Positions 8,810 through 64,000 of a stretch of 64,000 bases of DNA are shown one piece after another. Below the pieces are notes generated by a model, which was given only the letters and a program-made list of their open reading frames with translations, was not told the DNA's origin and did not search any database. Origin of the DNA: Isosphaeraceae bacterium (lineage in GTDB: Bacteria; Planctomycetota; Planctomycetia; Isosphaerales; Isosphaeraceae); the NCBI GenBank assembly GCA_021324445.1, contig JAJPJC010000040.1, positions 20,542-84,541 of the forward strand, written 5' to 3'. The position numbers and the translations under genes were made by a program. The first letter of the stretch is position 1. The number at the start of each line of letters is the position of its first letter.

Positions 8810-9769
8810 TCACACCACTGGCCCATTCACATCCGGCACGGAAGCCGGTTGGTCGCGGCTGAGGACCTGCTGGCGCAGGGCGGCGGCGCCGAGCAGGCCG
8901 CCTAACCCCATCGACTCGACGGCCGTACTGGGGACGAGCATCAGCGCGCCCTTCTCCTTGAGGCCCTCGTAGAGGATGTTCATGGCCCGCAGGTGGAGGG
9001 CCGTCGGGTTGTGCTCATACGACGAGGCCGCCAGGGAGAACAGATGGGCGATCTCGACCTCAGCCTGGCCAAGGATGATCCGGGCCTCCTTCTCGCGGGC
9101 CGCCTGGGCCTCGCGCGACATCGCATCTTGAAGCAACTCGGGGATGACCACGTCGCGCATCTCGACCGACTGGACCGTCACGCCCCACGGGTTGGATCGT
9201 TCGTCGATCAGCTTCTGGAGCTGGGCCTCGATCTGCTCGCGGCCGCGCAGCAGCACGGTCAGCGGCGTGCGGCCAATGATGTCGCGCAGGGCCGTCTGCG
9301 CCGCCCAACTGACCGCCAGCTTGTAGTCCTGGACCTCCAGCGCCGCCTTTTCGGGGTCATAAGCCATCCAGAACAAGACGGCGTCCACGTTCACCGGGAC
9401 GGTGTCGCAGGTGAGGGTCTGCTCGGCGGCAAAGCTGGTGGTGATGATGCGCTGATCGATCCAGGATGAGACCTGGTCGATGCCGGGGATGATCCAGAAC
9501 AGCCCCGGTCCGCGCAAGCCCGTGTACTTGCCCAGCCGCAGGATGACCCCGCGCTCCCATTGCTGGGCGACCTTGGGCGAGGCGGCTGCGATCAAGCCCA
9601 GCGGGATGCCGATGATCACCGGCAGCGGGTGCTCCCAGAGCACGGTGAGGCCGACTCCGGCGCCGAAGCCGATCACCAGGAGGAGAAAGGAGACGACGTT
9701 GATGCGCGGCGGGTCCGGCGGATTGCGCCGACTCTTCGCCGCTTCAGGGTTGCTCGACACGTTCGGCAT
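8810..9769 (-). CDS. SPFH/band 7 (stomatin-like) membrane protein
   Basis: 319 residues from ATG 9769, placed behind GGGAGAGG. Two adjacent hydrophobic segments (about residues 23-65) anchor the N-terminus, followed by the SPFH domain: WERGVILRLGKYTGLRGPGLFWIIPGID, RIITTSFAAEQTLTCDTVPV in pieces, then DVVIPELLQDAMSREAQAAREKEARI leading into a helical stalk. This is a slipin/stomatin-type scaffold, thought to organise membrane microdomains and sometimes acting with NfeD proteases; no NfeD gene is adjacent. The start lies within the end of the GntR gene (26-nt overlap), so the two are co-transcribed and probably co-regulated. Confidence 0.9.
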   Translation of the reverse strand: MPNVSSNPEAAKSRRNPPDPPRINVVSFLLLVIGFGAGVGLTVLWEHPLPVIIGIPLGLIAAASPKVAQQWERGVILRLGKYTGLRGPGLFWIIPGIDQVSSWIDQRIITTSFAAEQTLTCDTVPVNVDAVLFWMAYDPEKAALEVQDYKLAVSWAAQTALRDIIGRTPLTVLLRGREQIEAQLQKLIDERSNPWGVTVQSVEMRDVVIPELLQDAMSREAQAAREKEARIILGQAEVEIAHLFSLAASSYEHNPTALHLRAMNILYEGLKEKGALMLVPSTAVESMGLGGLLGAAALRQQVLSRDQPASVPDVNGPVV

Positions 9770-10157
9770 GGGACCTCTCCCGTTTCTGATCCAACCATCG
9801 GGTCTTGAGGAAGGCAACCGCTTCGGCCGCCGGGACGCCCAGCTCGGCCGCCCCGGCCAGGAAACGATCCGCCAGCATCGTCAGTTGCCGCTCGCGATCG
9901 GGGAGCGACGCGGCCCGGCCCCCTCTGTCCCGGATGAAGGTGCCGACGCCCCGGCGCGTCTCCAGCACGCCGGCGCGCTCCAGCTCGCCGTAGACCTTCG
10001 CCACCGTGTTCGCATTGATCCGCAGCTCGACCGCAAGCTGCCGGACTGTCGGCAGCTTGTCGCCAGGATGCAACCGCCCGGTCGCGATCGCCACGCGGAT
10101 CGCGCGTTCAAGCTGGGCATACAAGGGCGTCGGGTCCGAGGCGTCGATCGTGAACAC
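9744..10157 (-). CDS. GntR family regulator, short YtrA-type
   Basis: 137 residues if GTG 10157 is the start; this gives the usual YtrA N-terminus FTIDASDPTPLYAQLERAIR. The winged helix covers about residues 8-75 with GDKLPTVRQLAVELRINANTVAKVY as the recognition region (quoted over two motifs). The C-terminal part is a short helical tail of about 60 residues with no large ligand-binding domain, as expected of YtrA-like members. Such regulators usually repress their own operon of membrane proteins, fitting the overlapping SPFH gene downstream. A longer in-frame version starting at 10298 exists, but its extra residues look non-coding. Confidence 0.85.
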   Translation of the reverse strand: MFTIDASDPTPLYAQLERAIRVAIATGRLHPGDKLPTVRQLAVELRINANTVAKVYGELERAGVLETRRGVGTFIRDRGGRAASLPDRERQLTMLADRFLAGAAELGVPAAEAVAFLKTRWLDQKRERSHAERVEQP

Positions 10158-10172
10158 GGCCGTCTTGTCCTG

Positions 10173-10194
10173 TTGTCCTATAAAAACGGTACAA
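10173..10194. promoter_or_regulatory. Candidate GntR/YtrA operator upstream of the gntR start
   Basis: Plus-strand TTGTCC...GTACAA encloses an AT-rich centre: the 6-base arms match as inverted repeats at 5 of 6 positions across a 22-bp site. It lies 16 bp upstream of the GTG start, where a repressor site for autoregulation would be expected. On the minus strand it overlaps a TATAGG that could be a -10 element. Confidence 0.4.
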
Positions 10195-10294
10195 GTCGAG
10201 CGACCGGAAGTCAAGTCCGCGGTGGCTCGGCGAGGTGGTCCGCTGGTCAGCGTTGCGTTGGCCGCCAGGTTCACCCGATCCTCACGTGACACGA

Positions 10295-10969
10295 TCACGT
10301 TCCGCCCGGGGTGGGTTTCGCCAGGCGGTCACCGAGACGATTCAGCTTCGCGATGACGGCGACGGCCTGCTGCCGGCCCTGACGGGCGAGGCTGGCTCCC
10401 AGAGTTGTGGCCTGACCCACGAGCTGCTGGAGGCTTGTGAGGAAGAGGTTGTTTGCGATGTCGGTCTGATCCGAGTAGGCACTCTGAACTTCCACGCCCC
10501 AGGCGACGTCGAGGGCCTGGGTGAACCGGGCGGCATGCGCTGCTCCCAGGTTGAGGAGGTGTCGATCGCGATGGATGGCGGCGGCGAGGGCGCGTTCCCG
10601 CGCCGGGTCGCTTGCGCTGTGGTCCAACTCAGCGGTCAGCCCATCGATCGCGGTGGCCCCCCGGCTGGCGAGCTGCGCGCCGGCGGCCTCGACCTCGCGA
10701 GCCGCGGCGTCGAGCGCGTGCAGCGTGGTGGTCTGGATCGCCTCGACCTGATGGTAGGCCGCGCCAAGCTGCTGAGGCGTAGGGGATCCGATGGGCCCTG
10801 GTCCGATGGGCACCGGGTTGGTCGGCGAGGTCCCGGCGAGCAGGATCCGTCCCTCGAGGGCTTCGACGGTCAGCCGGATCGGTCGGAGCCGCTGATCGTG
10901 ACGAGAATGACGATGGTAAGGCGTCCCTGTTGCCCTCGGCGGCACCGGGAACGCGGATCGGGCGGCCAT
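10295..10969 (-). CDS. Hypothetical protein with N-terminal LExRxLL motif
   Basis: 224 residues. A basic N-terminus leads to LEGRILLA at 38-45, a variant of the LEPR-x-LL motif seen near the N-terminus of many planctomycete surface or exported proteins; its role is not established to my knowledge. The remainder (about 65-215) is predicted helical and Ala-rich, with heptad-like stretches such as LHALDAAAREVEAAGAQL, so probably a coiled coil. No catalytic motif is seen. The left end of the ISAs1 element is 47 bp upstream of the ATG, so the element has replaced the native upstream region. Confidence 0.6.
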   Translation of the reverse strand: MAARSAFPVPPRATGTPYHRHSRHDQRLRPIRLTVEALEGRILLAGTSPTNPVPIGPGPIGSPTPQQLGAAYHQVEAIQTTTLHALDAAAREVEAAGAQLASRGATAIDGLTAELDHSASDPARERALAAAIHRDRHLLNLGAAHAARFTQALDVAWGVEVQSAYSDQTDIANNLFLTSLQQLVGQATTLGASLARQGRQQAVAVIAKLNRLGDRLAKPTPGGT

Positions 10970-25576: not shown

Positions 25577-25823
25577 AGAGTCTGTTCCCAAAGCCCCGGA
25601 GGGGCGGTGGTCAAGAGCCAGGGGCGTCAGCCCCTGGTCGACCGCGGAGAGCCGAGCCCCCCCTCTCTTCCCAGCAGCCCCGCAGGGGCGACAGGGGTGA
25701 CTCTCGCCCCTGCGGGGCTCTCCCAAGGGGAGAGGGGCGCCGGAACGGTCCCAGGGGCTGCCGCCCCTGGCTCCTGACCACCGCCCCCATTCAGGGGCTC
25801 AGATCCCTTGAGGCACAGACTCT
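25577..25823. repeat. 247-bp nested inverted repeat (MITE-like)
   Basis: Outer ends AGAGTCTGT (25577) and ACAGACTCT (to 25823) are complementary. Inside, 37-base arms at 25601-25637 and 25751-25787 match as inverted repeats at 35 of 37 positions. Each arm contains its own hairpin: CAGGGGC-GTCA-GCCCCTG on the left and CAGGGGC-TGCC-GCCCCTG on the right. In the centre AGCCCCGCAGGGGCGA and its exact complement form a 16-bp stem with a 12-nt loop. No coding frame is present. A small non-autonomous element or a recombined REP-like pair is likely. Confidence 0.7.
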
Positions 25824-59943: not shown

Positions 59944-60258
59944 TTGGCAAGATCAGTGTCGGAGGCGGCAGAGCGGATGAACTACCTGGACGATGACGCG
60001 GTCAAGACCCTGACCGATCGGCTCGCCCGGGCCGAGGGCTCGCTCCGGGGCATCAGCAGGATGGTCGCCGAGCGGCGTTGCGTGGACGAGATCCTGACGC
60101 AAGTCGCCGCGGTGAAGGGAGCCCTCAACCAGGTCACGTGCCTGCTCCTCGAACGGCAGCTGAAGGCGTGCTTCACTCAGTGCATGCCGTCCGGGGAGCC
60201 GGATGACAGGCTCCAGCGGCTCGCCAACGCCCTGTCGATGGTCGTGAAGCAATCCTGA
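59944..60258 (+). CDS. CsoR/CstR-like (DUF156) repressor with unusual Cys set
   Basis: 104 residues from TTG 59944 (GGAGG eight bases upstream); ATG 59977 is an alternative. The DUF156 four-helix pattern is clear: LTDRLARAEGSLRGISRMV, CVDEILTQVAAVKGALNQV and a final LQRLANALSMVV. In CsoR the ligands are Cys-His-Cys; here the His position is Gln72, the first Cys (C46) is one residue further from the conserved Gln than usual, the last Cys is C76, and C66 and C80 are extra. This rules out a standard Cu(I) site and leaves persulfide-type sensing (CstR-like) or another metal as options. The selenoprotein gene starts 26 nt later. Confidence 0.85.
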   Translation: MARSVSEAAERMNYLDDDAVKTLTDRLARAEGSLRGISRMVAERRCVDEILTQVAAVKGALNQVTCLLLERQLKACFTQCMPSGEPDDRLQRLANALSMVVKQS

Positions 60259-60284
60259 GCGTTCTCCACGTCGGGGGACCGGCG

Positions 60285-61685
60285 ATGAAGGTGGTCCTGA
60301 TCTCGACCTATGAGATGGGACGCCAGCCGTTCGGCCTGGCATCGCCGGCGGCCTGGCTGCGCCGAGCCGAGATCGAAGTCTGTTGCCTGGACTTGTCGCG
60401 GCAACGGCTCGATGAGGAGGCAATCCGCAACGCCGATGTCGTCGCCTTCTACCTTCCGATGCACACCGCGACGCGGATTGCCCTGAAGGTCGCCGAGAGG
60501 GTCCGGGCCCTGAAACCCGGCGCGCACCTCTGTGCGTACGGCCTCTATGCGCCGATGAACCAAGAACTCCTGCGGAAGATGGGATTCAAGACGATCATCG
60601 GCGGGGAGTTCGAGGGGGGATTGGTCAGCCTGGTCCGCGGTCTCCAGGGAGCCGGGGGGACGCCGGCCCCATCGACCAGAGCGGCGGTCACCCTCGCGAA
60701 GCAGCAGTTCCTCGTCCCCGACCGCGATGGACTGCCGGACCTCGCCGGATATGCCCAGCTGACCCTCCCGGACGGCTCGCGGCGCGTGGTCGGGTACACC
60801 GAGGCCAGCCGCGGCTGCAAGCATCTCTGCCGCCACTGCCCGATCGTGCCGGTCTACAACGGTCGGTTCCGGATCGTCCAGCGCGACGTCGTCCTCGCCG
60901 ACATCCGCCAGCAGGTGGCGCGAGGGGCGCGGCACATCACGTTCGGCGACCCGGATTTCTTCAACGGCGCCAAGCACGCCCTCGAGCTGGTCCGGTCCCT
61001 ACATGCCCAAGACCCGCGCCTGACCTACGATGTCACCATCAAGGTCGAGCACCTGCTGAAGTACGCCGGGCTCCTCTCGACGCTCCGAGAGACCGGTTGC
61101 TCGTTCGTGACCACGGCCGTCGAGTCGGTGGACGACCGAGTCTTGGAGATCCTCGACAAGGGGCACACCCGCGCGGACTTCGTCAGGGTCGTTGGAGTGT
61201 GCCGCCGGACGGGCATCAACCTGGTGCCGACCTTTGTCGCCTTCAACCCGTGGATCACGCTCGAGGGGTACAGGGACCTGCTGAAAACCCTGATCGAGCT
61301 GGACTTGGTGGACCATGTCGCCCCGATCCAGCTCGCCATCCGCCTCTTGATCCCCCAGGGTTCGCGCCTCTTGGAACGGTCGGAAGTTCAGCAGATCGTG
61401 CGTGGGTTCGACGAAACGGCTCTGTGTTACCGCTGGGAGCACCCCGACCCCCGCGTGGACGCCCTCCAGCGCGACGTGGAGGCCTGGGTGCAGGAGGCAG
61501 CGCCCCGCGCCGATCGGCGGTCCGTCTTCTGCGAGGTCTGGCGGCGTCTACATCGGGTCCTGGACAACCCGGTCGCACCACTGCCGGTTGAAGACGCACC
61601 CTTGCCGCGGGCGGCCATCCCGTTCTTGAACGAGCCGTGGTATTGCTGAGCGGAACCGACCTCGGAGCAGTTGGCTCCGTACTGA
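60285..61685 (+). CDS. Radical SAM selenoprotein with C-terminal Cys-Sec-Ala-Glu-Pro tail
   Basis: ATG 60285 follows GGGGGA by 7 nt. Residues 1-130 look like a degenerate B12-binding Rossmann domain (MKVVLISTYEMGRQPFGLAS, DVVAFYLPMHTATRIAL) lacking the DxHxxG His. The radical SAM cluster site is C178-x3-C182-x2-C185 in GCKHLCRHC; ITFGDPDFFNGAKHALELV, CSFVTTAVESVDDRVL and VPTFVAFNPW are typical core strands. The conventional stop TGA at 61647 follows TGC; reading it as Sec455 gives C-U-A-E-P-T-S-E-Q-L-A-P-Y before TGA 61683, i.e. 466 residues. A CUAEP tail matches a named radical SAM selenoprotein family as I recall it, and a SECIS-like hairpin is present. If TGA is a true stop, the protein is 454 residues. 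Confidence 0.85.
61647..61679 (+). promoter_or_regulatory. Sec codon (TGA) and bacterial SECIS-like hairpin
   Basis: The TGA is at 61647-61649. CGGAGC (61663-61668) pairs perfectly with GCTCCG (61674-61679) around the loop AGUUG. The loop begins 19 nt after the TGA, within the 16-37 nt window for bacterial SECIS elements, with G as its second base and the GU dinucleotide typical of SelB-binding loops. The hairpin overlaps the coding region between the Sec codon and the real stop, as in bacteria. Confidence 0.7.
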
Positions 61686-61804
61686 CTTGTGGCTCCGCAT
61701 GCTGCTCCGGCCTGGGGTATTACCGCATGGTCGTATCTCAACCAGATCCGAGAGGAGGCATGGGGAGATTCCGGACGAGGCTGCGCCCAGAGGGGGAGAA
61801 GGAC
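61686..61804. other. 119-bp gap before the SagB-like gene
   Basis: In the frame of the radical SAM gene, a stretch from GTG 61689 reads VAPHAAPAWGITAWSYLNQI and continues to 61910. It has no ribosome site and degenerates into Arg-rich sequence, so it is not called as a gene. The SagB-like frame is also open here, which leaves its start uncertain. Confidence 0.35.
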
Positions 61805-63211
61805 GTGTGGTCGAGTCCATGGGCGGCTTCCCCTCTCCGGTACAGACTTGCCCCGGGCGCATGCTTGGCGGGGTCCACGGCGTGTGTCCTGTCCTTCAAG
61901 AATCCAATAGGGGGCCTGGTTTCGTTCGACGCGCAATACCCAGATGTGGTGAACGCGCTGCTCTTGCTTTCACGAGGAGGAGCTGGACTACCGCAGCTCA
62001 CTTCCATCGCGGCGGTGGAGGGGGGCGGGATGGAGGTCGTCCGGCATCTCCACCGCTGTCTTGAAGAGCTGAAGCGAAACGACTGCTTGGAGTTGGTTTG
62101 GGAACCCGATGGCCGAGAGCGCGCCGTGATCCGGGCAATGTGCCGTGAATTCGCGTTCTCTCATCAGCGGCTGCAACCGGATGTTGCGGTCGTTTTGTCG
62201 AGGTTCGCGTACGTGAGACGTGACGGCGACGCGGGCGTGCTCGAGTCGCCCGAGGCGTTGTGCCGCATCGAATTCACCTGTGCCGAAACGTGGCATTGTC
62301 TGGGCATCCTGTCCAGGCCGACCTCGATTGCGATGGCAGTCGCGGCAGGCCAGTTCGGCATCGCCGAACTGGCCGACCTGTTGTGGCGGACCAGGTTCGT
62401 GGAACTGGCGGATGTGGCCGAGCCTGCGGAGCGGGCGAGCTGGGAGTTCCACGATCTGCTGTTCCATTGGCGCAGCCGCGCCGGCCGGGTCAGCGGGCCG
62501 CAGGGCGGCACGTACCGTCACATGCAGCGGGCAACCTCTCCGCCCGCGATCAAGCCCAGGATGTCCGACGACACCGTCCTCCTCGCCAGGCCGGTGGACG
62601 AGGATCCGCCTCGCGAAAGCAGCCTCGAAAGTCTCATGGAACGGCGACGCTCAGTCCGCGAGCAGGACGGTCGTGCGATCTCCGCGGAGCAACTCGGCCG
62701 CCTCCTGTATCGCGTGGCCCGCGTCCAGCGCAGGCTGCCGGGCGAGTACCAAGAGCTCCTGTTGCGACCGATTCCCGCAGCCGGGGCGATCCACGAGCTC
62801 GAGTTCTATCCGGTGGTCGGCCGATGCGACGGCCTCGACCGTGGCCTGTACCACTATCATTGCGAACTCCATACGCTCCATCGACTGGCAACGCCCGAGA
62901 GCGACGTCGAAGCCCTGCTTGCCGACGCGGCTCTCTCCTGGGGGAAGCCCGACGACCCCCCGCAGGTGTTGATCATCCTCGCTTCGCGGCTGCCACGCTT
63001 GGCGTGGAAATACGAGGGGATCGCCTACCGTCTGACGCTGCTCAACGCCGGCGCGGCGATCCAATCGCTGTACTTGCTGGCGACCGAGATGGGGCTGGCG
63101 TGTTCGGCGATCGGTGGGGGAGATTCCGGCGTGTTTGCAAGCGCGACCGCTCTCGACCCGCTGGTGGAGACCTCGGTCGCAGAGTTTGCGGTGGGGAGTA
63201 AGCGCGGGTAG
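61805..63211 (+). CDS. SagB/ThcOx-type nitroreductase-fold peptide dehydrogenase
   Basis: 468 residues if GTG 61805 is the start (GGAG six bases upstream); in-frame ATGs at 61727 and 61760 are alternatives. The N-terminal 260 residues begin PLRYRLAPGACLAGSTACVL and include a helical part (VVRHLHRCLEELKRNDCLEL), the accessory region of SagB proteins. Residues about 265-465 are an FMN-binding nitroreductase domain: SLESLMERRRSVREQ, ELEFYPVVGRCDGLDRGLYH and LNAGAAIQSLYLLATEMGLA with CSAIGGGDSG. In TOMM pathways such enzymes oxidise azolines to azoles. No YcaO cyclodehydratase is in view. Confidence 0.88.
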   Translation: MWSSPWAASPLRYRLAPGACLAGSTACVLSFKNPIGGLVSFDAQYPDVVNALLLLSRGGAGLPQLTSIAAVEGGGMEVVRHLHRCLEELKRNDCLELVWEPDGRERAVIRAMCREFAFSHQRLQPDVAVVLSRFAYVRRDGDAGVLESPEALCRIEFTCAETWHCLGILSRPTSIAMAVAAGQFGIAELADLLWRTRFVELADVAEPAERASWEFHDLLFHWRSRAGRVSGPQGGTYRHMQRATSPPAIKPRMSDDTVLLARPVDEDPPRESSLESLMERRRSVREQDGRAISAEQLGRLLYRVARVQRRLPGEYQELLLRPIPAAGAIHELEFYPVVGRCDGLDRGLYHYHCELHTLHRLATPESDVEALLADAALSWGKPDDPPQVLIILASRLPRLAWKYEGIAYRLTLLNAGAAIQSLYLLATEMGLACSAIGGGDSGVFASATALDPLVETSVAEFAVGSKRG

Positions 63212-63449
63212 ACGAACGCCCCGCGGGGGAGGCTGTGTTGCAGGCTGACCTGGAGATTCGTGGCCAACCTGTGCGTTGGACGCCAGAGGCTTCGCAGCCC
63301 GGTCGCCTGGTCGGTAGGCAGCACCGTAGGTCGAAGGAGGTGGAGAAGCCCGAGCATGACGTCTGTTGCGGTCGATCCTGAATCACAGCCGAATTCGGCC
63401 TTGGGATTGGGTTCCATGGCCGAAGCCGGGGCAAACGGAGGATAGATCA
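63212..63449 (+). other. 238-bp leader region of the repeat-protein gene, with small open frames
   Basis: Two short frames are noted but not called: GTG 63234 (48 codons, GGGGGAGG immediately upstream) and ATG 63356 (29 codons, MTSVAVDPESQPNSALGLGS), whose stop TAG 63443-63445 lies 4 nt before the next gene. The second may couple translation to the repeat-protein gene. Neither matches a known family. Confidence 0.35.
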
Positions 63450-64000
63450 ATGCCCGAGGAAACCGGCGCGAAAAGGCCCGAGGAGCCTCACCCGCCGAAG
63501 AAGGAAGAAGGGGGGGCGCCCACGCCGGGGGCCGGCAAGGTTTCCGGGGTCACCGAGATCTCGGCATCCGTGATTGCCGCCCTCGGCAAGAAGTTGGACG
63601 AACTCGCGAGGACCTTGACCGAGGACGAACAGATCGCCCTCGCGACGACGTTCGCGCTGGCCGCGAGGGGATTCCTCACCTTCGGGGGGCCGGAGGCGTG
63701 CGTCGGAAGCCTGAGGGTGGGACTCGGGCAAACCAGTCTCTTCGTTGAGAGGCTGAGCGGCAGTTCGGTTCCCAAGCTGTCAGAAACGCTCGTGGCCTCG
63801 TTGTGCCCGAGCAAGGCGAGCCGATTCTCGATCGAAGGTTTGGAGGTGGAGAAAACCATGACAGGAGCCAAGAGCGTCGCCGCCGCCGGGTTCTGCCGGA
63901 GCCCGGGCATGTACGCGGCCAAGAGCGTCGCCGCCGGCGCGATGTGCCGGAGCCCGGGCATGTACGCGGCCAAGAGCGTCGCCGCCGGCGCGATGTGCCG
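63450..64000 (+). CDS. Tandem-repeat peptide precursor candidate (partial, runs off the window)
   Basis: ATG 63450 has GGAGG eight bases upstream. 183 codons are open to the window end. Residues 1-30 are charged and Pro-rich; 36-76 form an amphipathic, acidic helix region (ISASVIAALGKKLDELARTL); 77-139 is a spacer with C84 and C119. From 140, a 17-residue unit AKSVAAGAMCRSPGMYA repeats in tandem: the first copy differs (AAGFC for AGAMC), the second is exact, and the third is cut by the window end. Each unit has one Cys, one Met-Tyr pair and Pro-Gly. The leader plus repeated-core layout and its place after radical SAM and SagB genes suggest a RiPP-like substrate; a structural repeat protein is the alternative. 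Confidence 0.75.
   Translation, partial: MPEETGAKRPEEPHPPKKEEGGAPTPGAGKVSGVTEISASVIAALGKKLDELARTLTEDEQIALATTFALAARGFLTFGGPEACVGSLRVGLGQTSLFVERLSGSSVPKLSETLVASLCPSKASRFSIEGLEVEKTMTGAKSVAAAGFCRSPGMYAAKSVAAGAMCRSPGMYAAKSVAAGAMC
63867..64000 (+). repeat. 51-bp in-frame tandem repeats
   Basis: Units at 63867-63917, 63918-63968 and 63969 to the window end. The second and the visible 32 bases of the third are identical at DNA level; the first differs only around codons 7-9. Such DNA identity implies recent duplication or gene conversion, so the copy number may vary between strains. Confidence 0.9.

Follow-up and report, generated by a model that had tools for sequence, protein, structure and literature searches.

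The right-hand end of a 64,000-nucleotide stretch of the genome of an Isosphaeraceae bacterium (Planctomycetota) very likely represents the left half of a gene cluster for a ribosomally synthesised and post-translationally modified peptide (RiPP) with a multi-core precursor. The stretch, referred to here as the window, corresponds to bases 20542–84541 of contig C421 (84,541 bp) in an assembly of 567 contigs and 10.8 Mb. The initial annotation had proposed such a pathway from four genes on the same strand, namely a DUF156 repressor with altered ligands, a radical S-adenosylmethionine (SAM) protein with an in-frame selenocysteine (Sec) codon, a SagB-type dehydrogenase and a repeat protein gene. 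All four are present in that order, and the RiPP nature of the cluster is strongly supported, having been strengthened by a YcaO protein, a RiPP C-methyltransferase and other enzymes on a second contig (C202) and by five precursor relatives linked to SagB. As the whole explanation it is proposed, with a probability of about 0.7, that YcaO and SagB form thiazole peptides from the repeat precursor and that the radical SAM protein, termed CUAEP here, acts with an ATP-grasp enzyme to add a building block. The features of the window are as follows:

59977..60258, plus strand: CsoR/DUF156-type repressor of 93 aa with altered metal ligands (PF02583, 66.7 bits; start codon read)
60285..61685, plus strand: radical SAM protein with CUAEP tail, 466 aa if the UGA encodes Sec (NF040546; translation)
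61647..61649, plus strand: in-frame UGA, predicted Sec codon (same place in all six CUAEP loci)
61663..61679, plus strand: hairpin of the selenocysteine insertion sequence (SECIS) type, 6-bp stem and AGUUN loop, starting 13 nt 3' of the UGA (covariation)
61760..63211, plus strand: SagB/ThcOx-type azoline dehydrogenase of 483 aa (TIGR03605, PF22767, PF00881, CyaGox 5lq4)
63450..64000, plus strand: multi-core precursor gene, leader then repeats, running off the contig end and finishing on C202 (~20000-19880, minus strand, of L011, the 20 of 31 kb of C202 that were read; 20 non-self relatives)
63867..64000, plus strand: 51-bp/17-residue tandem units AKSVAA...CRSPGMYA (Tandem Repeats Finder, TRF)

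The repeat gene begins at ATG 63450 and is still open at the right end of the window, which is also the end of the contig. TRF gave a period of 51, 2.6 copies and 95% matches. The leader-like N-terminus and the tandem 17-residue units described beforehand were recovered, with the qualification that the units, given as identical, are so within the window only for the second and the truncated third, the first carrying AGF instead of GAM. The last 105 bases of the window have a 100% match at one other place in the genome, the end of C202, where the gene (minus strand of L011) terminates in ...CRNPGLYGGGFCG and a stop codon and is succeeded by a series of genes on the same strand. A database protein of 229 aa with five units (P0002) starts with the exact 183 residues of the window and ends with the exact 46 residues of C202. 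Because this protein reads across both contigs, C421 and C202 are taken to be neighbours; the assembly evidently breaks inside the repeat, and the true number of units could differ from the five of P0002. The idea that one of the contigs is foreign (assembly contamination 8.51%) was provisionally set aside, given the planctomycete-type genes on C421, a GC content of 0.66–0.68 throughout and the span of P0002. The genes in question are PSCyt2, PSD1 and DUF1501, which we take to be typical of planctomycetes.

A protein search at E ≤ 1e-3 returned 21 precursor proteins, one of which is P0002, leaving 20 non-self relatives. Common to them is an N-terminal domain that ends in ...FSIEGLEVEKTM... and precedes KSVAA-spaced units, between two and ten per protein; P0013 lacks the first part of the domain. 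KSVAA is almost constant across units and the segment following it is variable (CRNPGM, CQNLGM, GNMACR). Over the 21 proteins, Cys was present in 125 of 141 inter-unit segments of at least three residues, as cut by an analyst-chosen splitting pattern which gives some odd pieces. From the constant linker and the variable segment we infer that KSVAA would be read by the enzymes and that the remainder would form the core. The AlphaFold model has an ordered region at residues ~31–120 (block means of 81–96 in predicted local distance difference test, pLDDT) followed by disordered units, with an overall mean of 59.8. It had no fold match in the PDB at E ≤ 0.001, and no Pfam or NCBIfam model matched the precursor at E ≤ 0.1. 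Five of the relatives (P0008–P0012) end in MSGAFCRG.

The SagB gene has its best start at ATG 61760, preceded by GAGGAGG, and its product matched TIGR03605 with 142.8 bits (cut-off 78.4), with ThcOx (PF22767) and nitroreductase (PF00881) domains; its best solved relative is CyaGox (5lq4, 183 bits). The search had been expected to reveal the end of the repeat gene and further enzymes past position 64000. The end of the gene, a YcaO protein and a C-methyltransferase were found there, and the expected peptidase and transporter went unrecognised among the open reading frames (ORFs) run, as weighed below. The genes on C202, part of whose ORFs were run through Pfam, are given in L011 positions:

19634-17679, minus strand: RiPP maturation radical SAM C-methyltransferase of 651 aa (TIGR03975, 667 bits, cut-off 282)
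~17677-16106, minus strand: YcaO protein (PF02624, 129.6 bits, cut-off 25.7)
16109-13899, minus strand: sulfotransferase/ATP-grasp fusion of 736 aa with LAL_C2, amino-acid ligase type (profile matches)
13747-12728, minus strand: methyltransferase (2-ketoarginine and ApyS methyltransferase models, 151.5 and 104.1 bits, both under their cut-offs)
12647-10623, minus strand: class I/II aminotransferase of 674 aa with oxygenase-like C-terminal part (NCBIfam models including GntC, 270.9 bits, cut-off 415)
9570-10427, minus strand: HMA-like, Cys-rich ORF, possibly exported (by eye), directly after the aminotransferase fusion (14.3 bits only)
beyond the HMA-like ORF, opposite strand to the RiPP series: DUF169 gene (Pfam)

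With 32.2 bits, the match of the N-terminal part of the YcaO protein to the leader-binding model TIGR03882 falls just short of the cut-off of 36.9. The protein terminates in PTPHPFG, which we take to resemble the proline-rich C-terminus of YcaO enzymes that form azoles. The marks of linear azole peptide RiPPs that were found are an azoline dehydrogenase (SagB, on TIGR03605 and CyaGox), a YcaO cyclodehydratase (on PF02624), a precursor with leader and core adjacent to modifying enzymes and Cys/Ser/Thr in the core. Given the family assignments of YcaO and SagB, thiazole formation by the two is likely. No convincing PDB relative was found for the oxygenase-like end of the aminotransferase fusion, whose other matches, to WelO5 and 2-oxoglutarate (2OG) oxygenases, were weak.

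To relate the precursor to its enzymes in other genomes, linkage was judged from equal longest-contig sizes in the protein tables, taken to mean the same contig; this measure says nothing of gene order in the DNA. The best 120 matches each for CUAEP and SagB were compared, and contigs shorter than 5 kb carry 12 of the 20 precursors. SagB and precursor share contig sizes for five of the 20 non-self precursors (4564, 7212, 17804, 21535 and 48379 bp), the SagB proteins concerned holding ranks 22, 12, 18, 19 and 8 of the 120 listed. No such sharing was found between the 20 precursors and the 120 closest CUAEP proteins listed, which serves as a control for chance in the SagB comparison. CUAEP and SagB occur on equal-size contigs twice, at 20597 bp (86% and 92% identical to the proteins of the window) and at 399211 bp (63% and 58%). 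Of the three longest precursor contigs (194,630, 153,121 and 48,379 bp), that of 48,379 bp is the single one matched by a SagB of the 120 listed. P0003, P0010 and P0011, on contigs of 45,782, 194,630 and 153,121 bp, are relatives for which none was found within that list.

These data also bear on the reading of the repeat protein as an unmodified structural or surface protein, with SagB and YcaO acting elsewhere. Ala- and Gly-rich tandem units of 17 residues occur in structural proteins too, and the relative P0003 has weak stray matches to the Cin1 and IniB models. The N-terminus, however, has no signal peptide or hydrophobic segment (by eye), the leader is kept in the 20 non-self relatives (one without its first part), five of these share a contig size with SagB, and the gene is placed between SagB on one side and the RiPP C-methyltransferase and YcaO on the other. 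This role for the repeat protein is considered highly improbable.

The radical SAM protein matched NF040546 (rSAM_CUAEP) with 634 bits, above the cut-off of 500, and carries the C[UC]AEP tail of the family. After the UGA at 61647 the frame encodes AEPTSEQLAPY before a stop codon, and the tail reads CUAEPTSEQLAPY. A CX3CX2C motif lies at residues 178–185, its Cys being invariant across 45 aligned proteins. The AlphaFold model has a mean pLDDT of 86, with 50–66 in the tail region, and in structure comparison resembles AprD4, TsrM, OxsB and MgmA, a likeness of predicted folds which does not settle the chemistry of CUAEP.

Incorporation of Sec at UGA 61647 is well supported, as a covarying SECIS-type hairpin, Cys homologues, SelA, SelB and tRNA-Sec were all identified, in agreement with the Sec codon proposed earlier. 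The family exceeds its cut-off in six of 392 genomes of the phylum (own included), each match with one in-frame TGA; five of the tails are CUAEP and one is CUSEP (L045:8847, minus strand). The hairpin downstream of the UGA is present in all six loci with its AGUUN loop, 34 of 36 cells being paired and three of six pairs changed on both sides, in an alignment of few (six) sequences whose bases also encode an E/D/G-Q-L/F-x-P stretch. Slid windows reached at most 58% pairing. Of 500 shuffles, two matched the observed pairing and two the covariation score, and 18 had at least as many pairs with changes on both sides, 36 at least as many such cells and 376 at least as many further pair types. Of the 120 proteins listed (own included), seven continue with Cys at the Sec site (six CCAEP and one CCAEH), 112 end in WYC or WFC and one is different. 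SelB (380 bits, cut-off 242), SelA (498.8 bits, cut-off 268) and tRNA-Sec are encoded in the genome. If the UGA were a true stop, the CUAEP tail would not be made, and the 112 proteins that end one residue before the site, that of the window among them, fit this, being records of proteins with their DNA unseen. Set against this are the recurrence of this tail after the UGA at each of the six loci read, the covariation of the hairpin there, the replacement of UGA by Cys, the encoded Sec machinery and a curated family named after this very tail, and a true stop is scarcely credible.

The genes accompanying CUAEP elsewhere were examined in the five other loci, with 20 kb read for four and a 6.9-kb contig for the fifth (tblastn at 1e-4). 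In three of the five, a gene homologous to the ATP-grasp portion of the C202 fusion lies within 2 kb of CUAEP (38.6–46% identity over ~400 residues). At E ≤ 1e-30 the ATP-grasp protein of L042 was found in five of the 392 genomes (G000, G020, G044, G058 and G081), all of which are CUAEP genomes, the sixth (G061) having no match at this threshold; the hypergeometric P of 8e-11 serves as a guide only, as the genomes are not independent. The DUF169 protein of C202 was found at E ≤ 1e-30 in three of the 392 (G000, G081 and G044), all CUAEP genomes (P = 2e-6), lying in G081 between CUAEP and ATP-grasp (64% identity) and in G044 on a separate contig (38%). NifU-type genes adjoin or are near ATP-grasp in G081 and G058 (Pfam), G044 (tblastn) and G020 (by eye). 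Elsewhere in the phylum sample the partner of CUAEP is the ATP-grasp enzyme, and CUAEP is no general partner of this RiPP. The initial reading of CUAEP as a dedicated peptide-modifying partner of the repeat substrate is not supported in that form, the radical SAM gene sitting elsewhere in all five other loci read and sharing no contig size with any of the 20 precursors within the list of 120.

It should also be noted that a set of genes recurs in other genomes of the phylum (L042:8974-13448, L043:10606-13465, L045:6529-10269 and L065:9207-10810), consisting of CUAEP, a NifU-type scaffold, an ATP-grasp ligase and, in one, DUF169, with SufT-like, rhodanese or HesB-like genes close by in some. 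No such RiPP genes were found in these sets.

In the genome of the window, CUAEP lies at one end of the RiPP genes and ATP-grasp and DUF169 at the other. It is mainly this nesting that leads us to treat the region as one cluster, and we read it as a merger in which a CUAEP/ATP-grasp pair would add a non-ribosomal building block to a RiPP. As CUAEP occurs elsewhere with no RiPP precursor found and mostly with an amino-acid-ligase-type enzyme, we commit to a building-block role for which the acceptor atom could be arsenic, selenium, sulfur or another. CUAEP and the precursor were each found in one of 45 genomes of the order, the genome of the window itself, which fits a joint gain by transfer; the precursor was likewise confined to this genome among the 392 of the phylum.

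It is proposed that the E1-like N-terminal region of the YcaO protein would bind the ordered leader (~residues 31–120), that the Cys of each unit would be closed to a thiazoline ring, which SagB would oxidise to thiazole, with the TIGR03975 radical SAM enzyme C-methylating the core. A predicted protease would then cut at or near the constant KSVAA linker to give several small peptides. CUAEP, whose nearest characterised NCBIfam relative is ArsL, would produce a modified amino acid, which the sulfotransferase-fused ATP-grasp domain would attach to the released peptide in the manner of PGM1 in pheganomycin, these two steps being the weakest of the scheme.

A number of findings weigh against this explanation. 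The YcaO protein scores below the cut-offs of both TIGR models, reaching 131.8 bits with the SagD model TIGR03604 (cut-off 219) in addition to its value for TIGR03882, and neither a transporter nor a protease could be recognised in the subset of C202 ORFs run through Pfam, within 20 of 31 kb. Fifteen of the 20 non-self precursors have no SagB match among the 120 listed, and none of the 20 shares a contig size with a listed CUAEP. No CsoR, SagB, YcaO or precursor was detected in any of the five other CUAEP loci, and their genomes have weak SagB-like matches in three cases (best 57 bits) and zero in two; the C-methyltransferase query matched radical SAM genes weakly in one of these loci and nothing in the others. 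No NifU-type gene was found in the window or across the 20 kb read from C202. Some of these points would also suit a separate metal(loid)- or sulfur-responsive operon of CsoR and CUAEP standing beside a RiPP cluster that starts at SagB, as would the abundance of radical SAM relatives (at least 7997 at E ≤ 1e-40, not all of which need be CUAEP) set against 21 precursors. Such an operon is nevertheless judged unlikely, since CUAEP and SagB are just 74 bases apart, the two recur on an equal-size contig as the 86% and 92% identical pair, and the ATP-grasp and DUF169 partners lie on C202 past the precursor and YcaO, so that the RiPP genes are nested in the CUAEP set.

Returning to the single merged cluster, a metal(loid) or sulfur theme can be considered from the repressor. 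Its PF02583 match of 66.7 bits exceeds the cut-off of 22.8, with ATG 59977 as the best start, and the protein was aligned to 5fmn, 4m1p and 6ahx. The metal ligands of copper-sensing CsoR are presumably a Cys-His-Cys set. Compared by eye with Geobacillus CsoR (4m1p), the first Cys is replaced by Val and the His by Gln and the second Cys is retained, giving Val-Gln-Cys with an extra Cys one residue ahead of the Val; the ligands are altered as the initial annotation had stated. The altered ligands, like the weak HMA-like ORF, are compatible with a metal(loid) or sulfur theme and prove nothing.

In PMC8552651, the C–As bond of hydroxyarsinothricin is predicted to arise when ArsL moves the 3-amino-3-carboxypropyl group from SAM onto arsenite. 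The ArsL model (NF040542, named for a Cys-rich RCCLKC motif) is the second best for CUAEP, which shares the CX3CX2C motif (PMC8552651). Unlike ArsL, the protein of the window falls below the cut-off of this model (296.7 bits against 450) and has a CUAEP tail with Sec. A hybrid pathway may be imagined in which thiazole peptides are combined with an organo-metalloid (As/Se) amino acid, built by CUAEP as an ArsL-like selenoprotein from the aminocarboxypropyl group of SAM, under a metalloid- or reactive-sulfur-sensing repressor; this more specific version is a long shot.

The cluster resembles those of linear azole peptides and cyanobactins in its YcaO with an E1-like part (just under cut-off), its SagB nearest CyaGox and its Cys-bearing cores. 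It differs from them in a precursor with no Pfam, NCBIfam or PDB fold match, in its B12-type C-methyltransferase and its sulfotransferase/ATP-grasp and aminotransferase/oxygenase-like fusions, and in that no PatA/PatG-type protease was recognised. An ATP-grasp ligase adjoining a ribosomal precursor recalls the PGM1 pathway of pheganomycin, whose ligase couples a non-proteinogenic amino acid to a core of ribosomal origin, a comparison made by description and not by sequence, whereas YcaO, SagB, CUAEP and the sulfotransferase-fused ligase set the present cluster apart. ATP-grasp loci with a SagB-like enzyme or with YcaO (branch 6), along with PGM1, are described in the available part of PMC8939145. 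Again likened by description, the branch 6 loci differ in that CUAEP and a KSVAA multi-core precursor are absent from that part of the text. No paper was found in the literature search with the word CUAEP, NF040546 does not appear in the available main text of the 2026 review of prokaryotic selenoproteins (PMC13188914), and the searches made found no description by title or abstract of CUAEP, SagB and a repeat precursor in combination.

The precursor represents a multi-core family, its leader having no Pfam or NCBIfam model or solved fold in the searches, and comes with its accompanying enzymes. The large CUAEP selenoprotein family gains genetic partners in the phylum sample, namely an ATP-grasp amino-acid ligase, DUF169 and often a NifU-type scaffold, through which its product becomes a testable question. 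Should the two pathways indeed be fused in this genome, the resulting peptide may have chemistry that is new to RiPPs.

The genes preceding CsoR on its left, DUF1549/DUF1553 and DUF1501, are on the opposite strand, which makes CsoR the likely left edge of the cluster. Further along C202, DUF1579, a MerR/B12-type regulator, a Mn catalase, a photolyase and a PALP enzyme are encoded. Two scans of viral contigs gave no relative of the precursor or CUAEP. A pattern-based scan of GTDB contigs gave a match to the precursor in a Bacteroidaceae metagenome-assembled genome (41% over 44 residues), which was taken as spurious. The sole Rfam match at gathering level in the window is an Acido-Lenti-1 RNA (RF01687) at 25592-25637 on the minus strand, with 44.7 bits.

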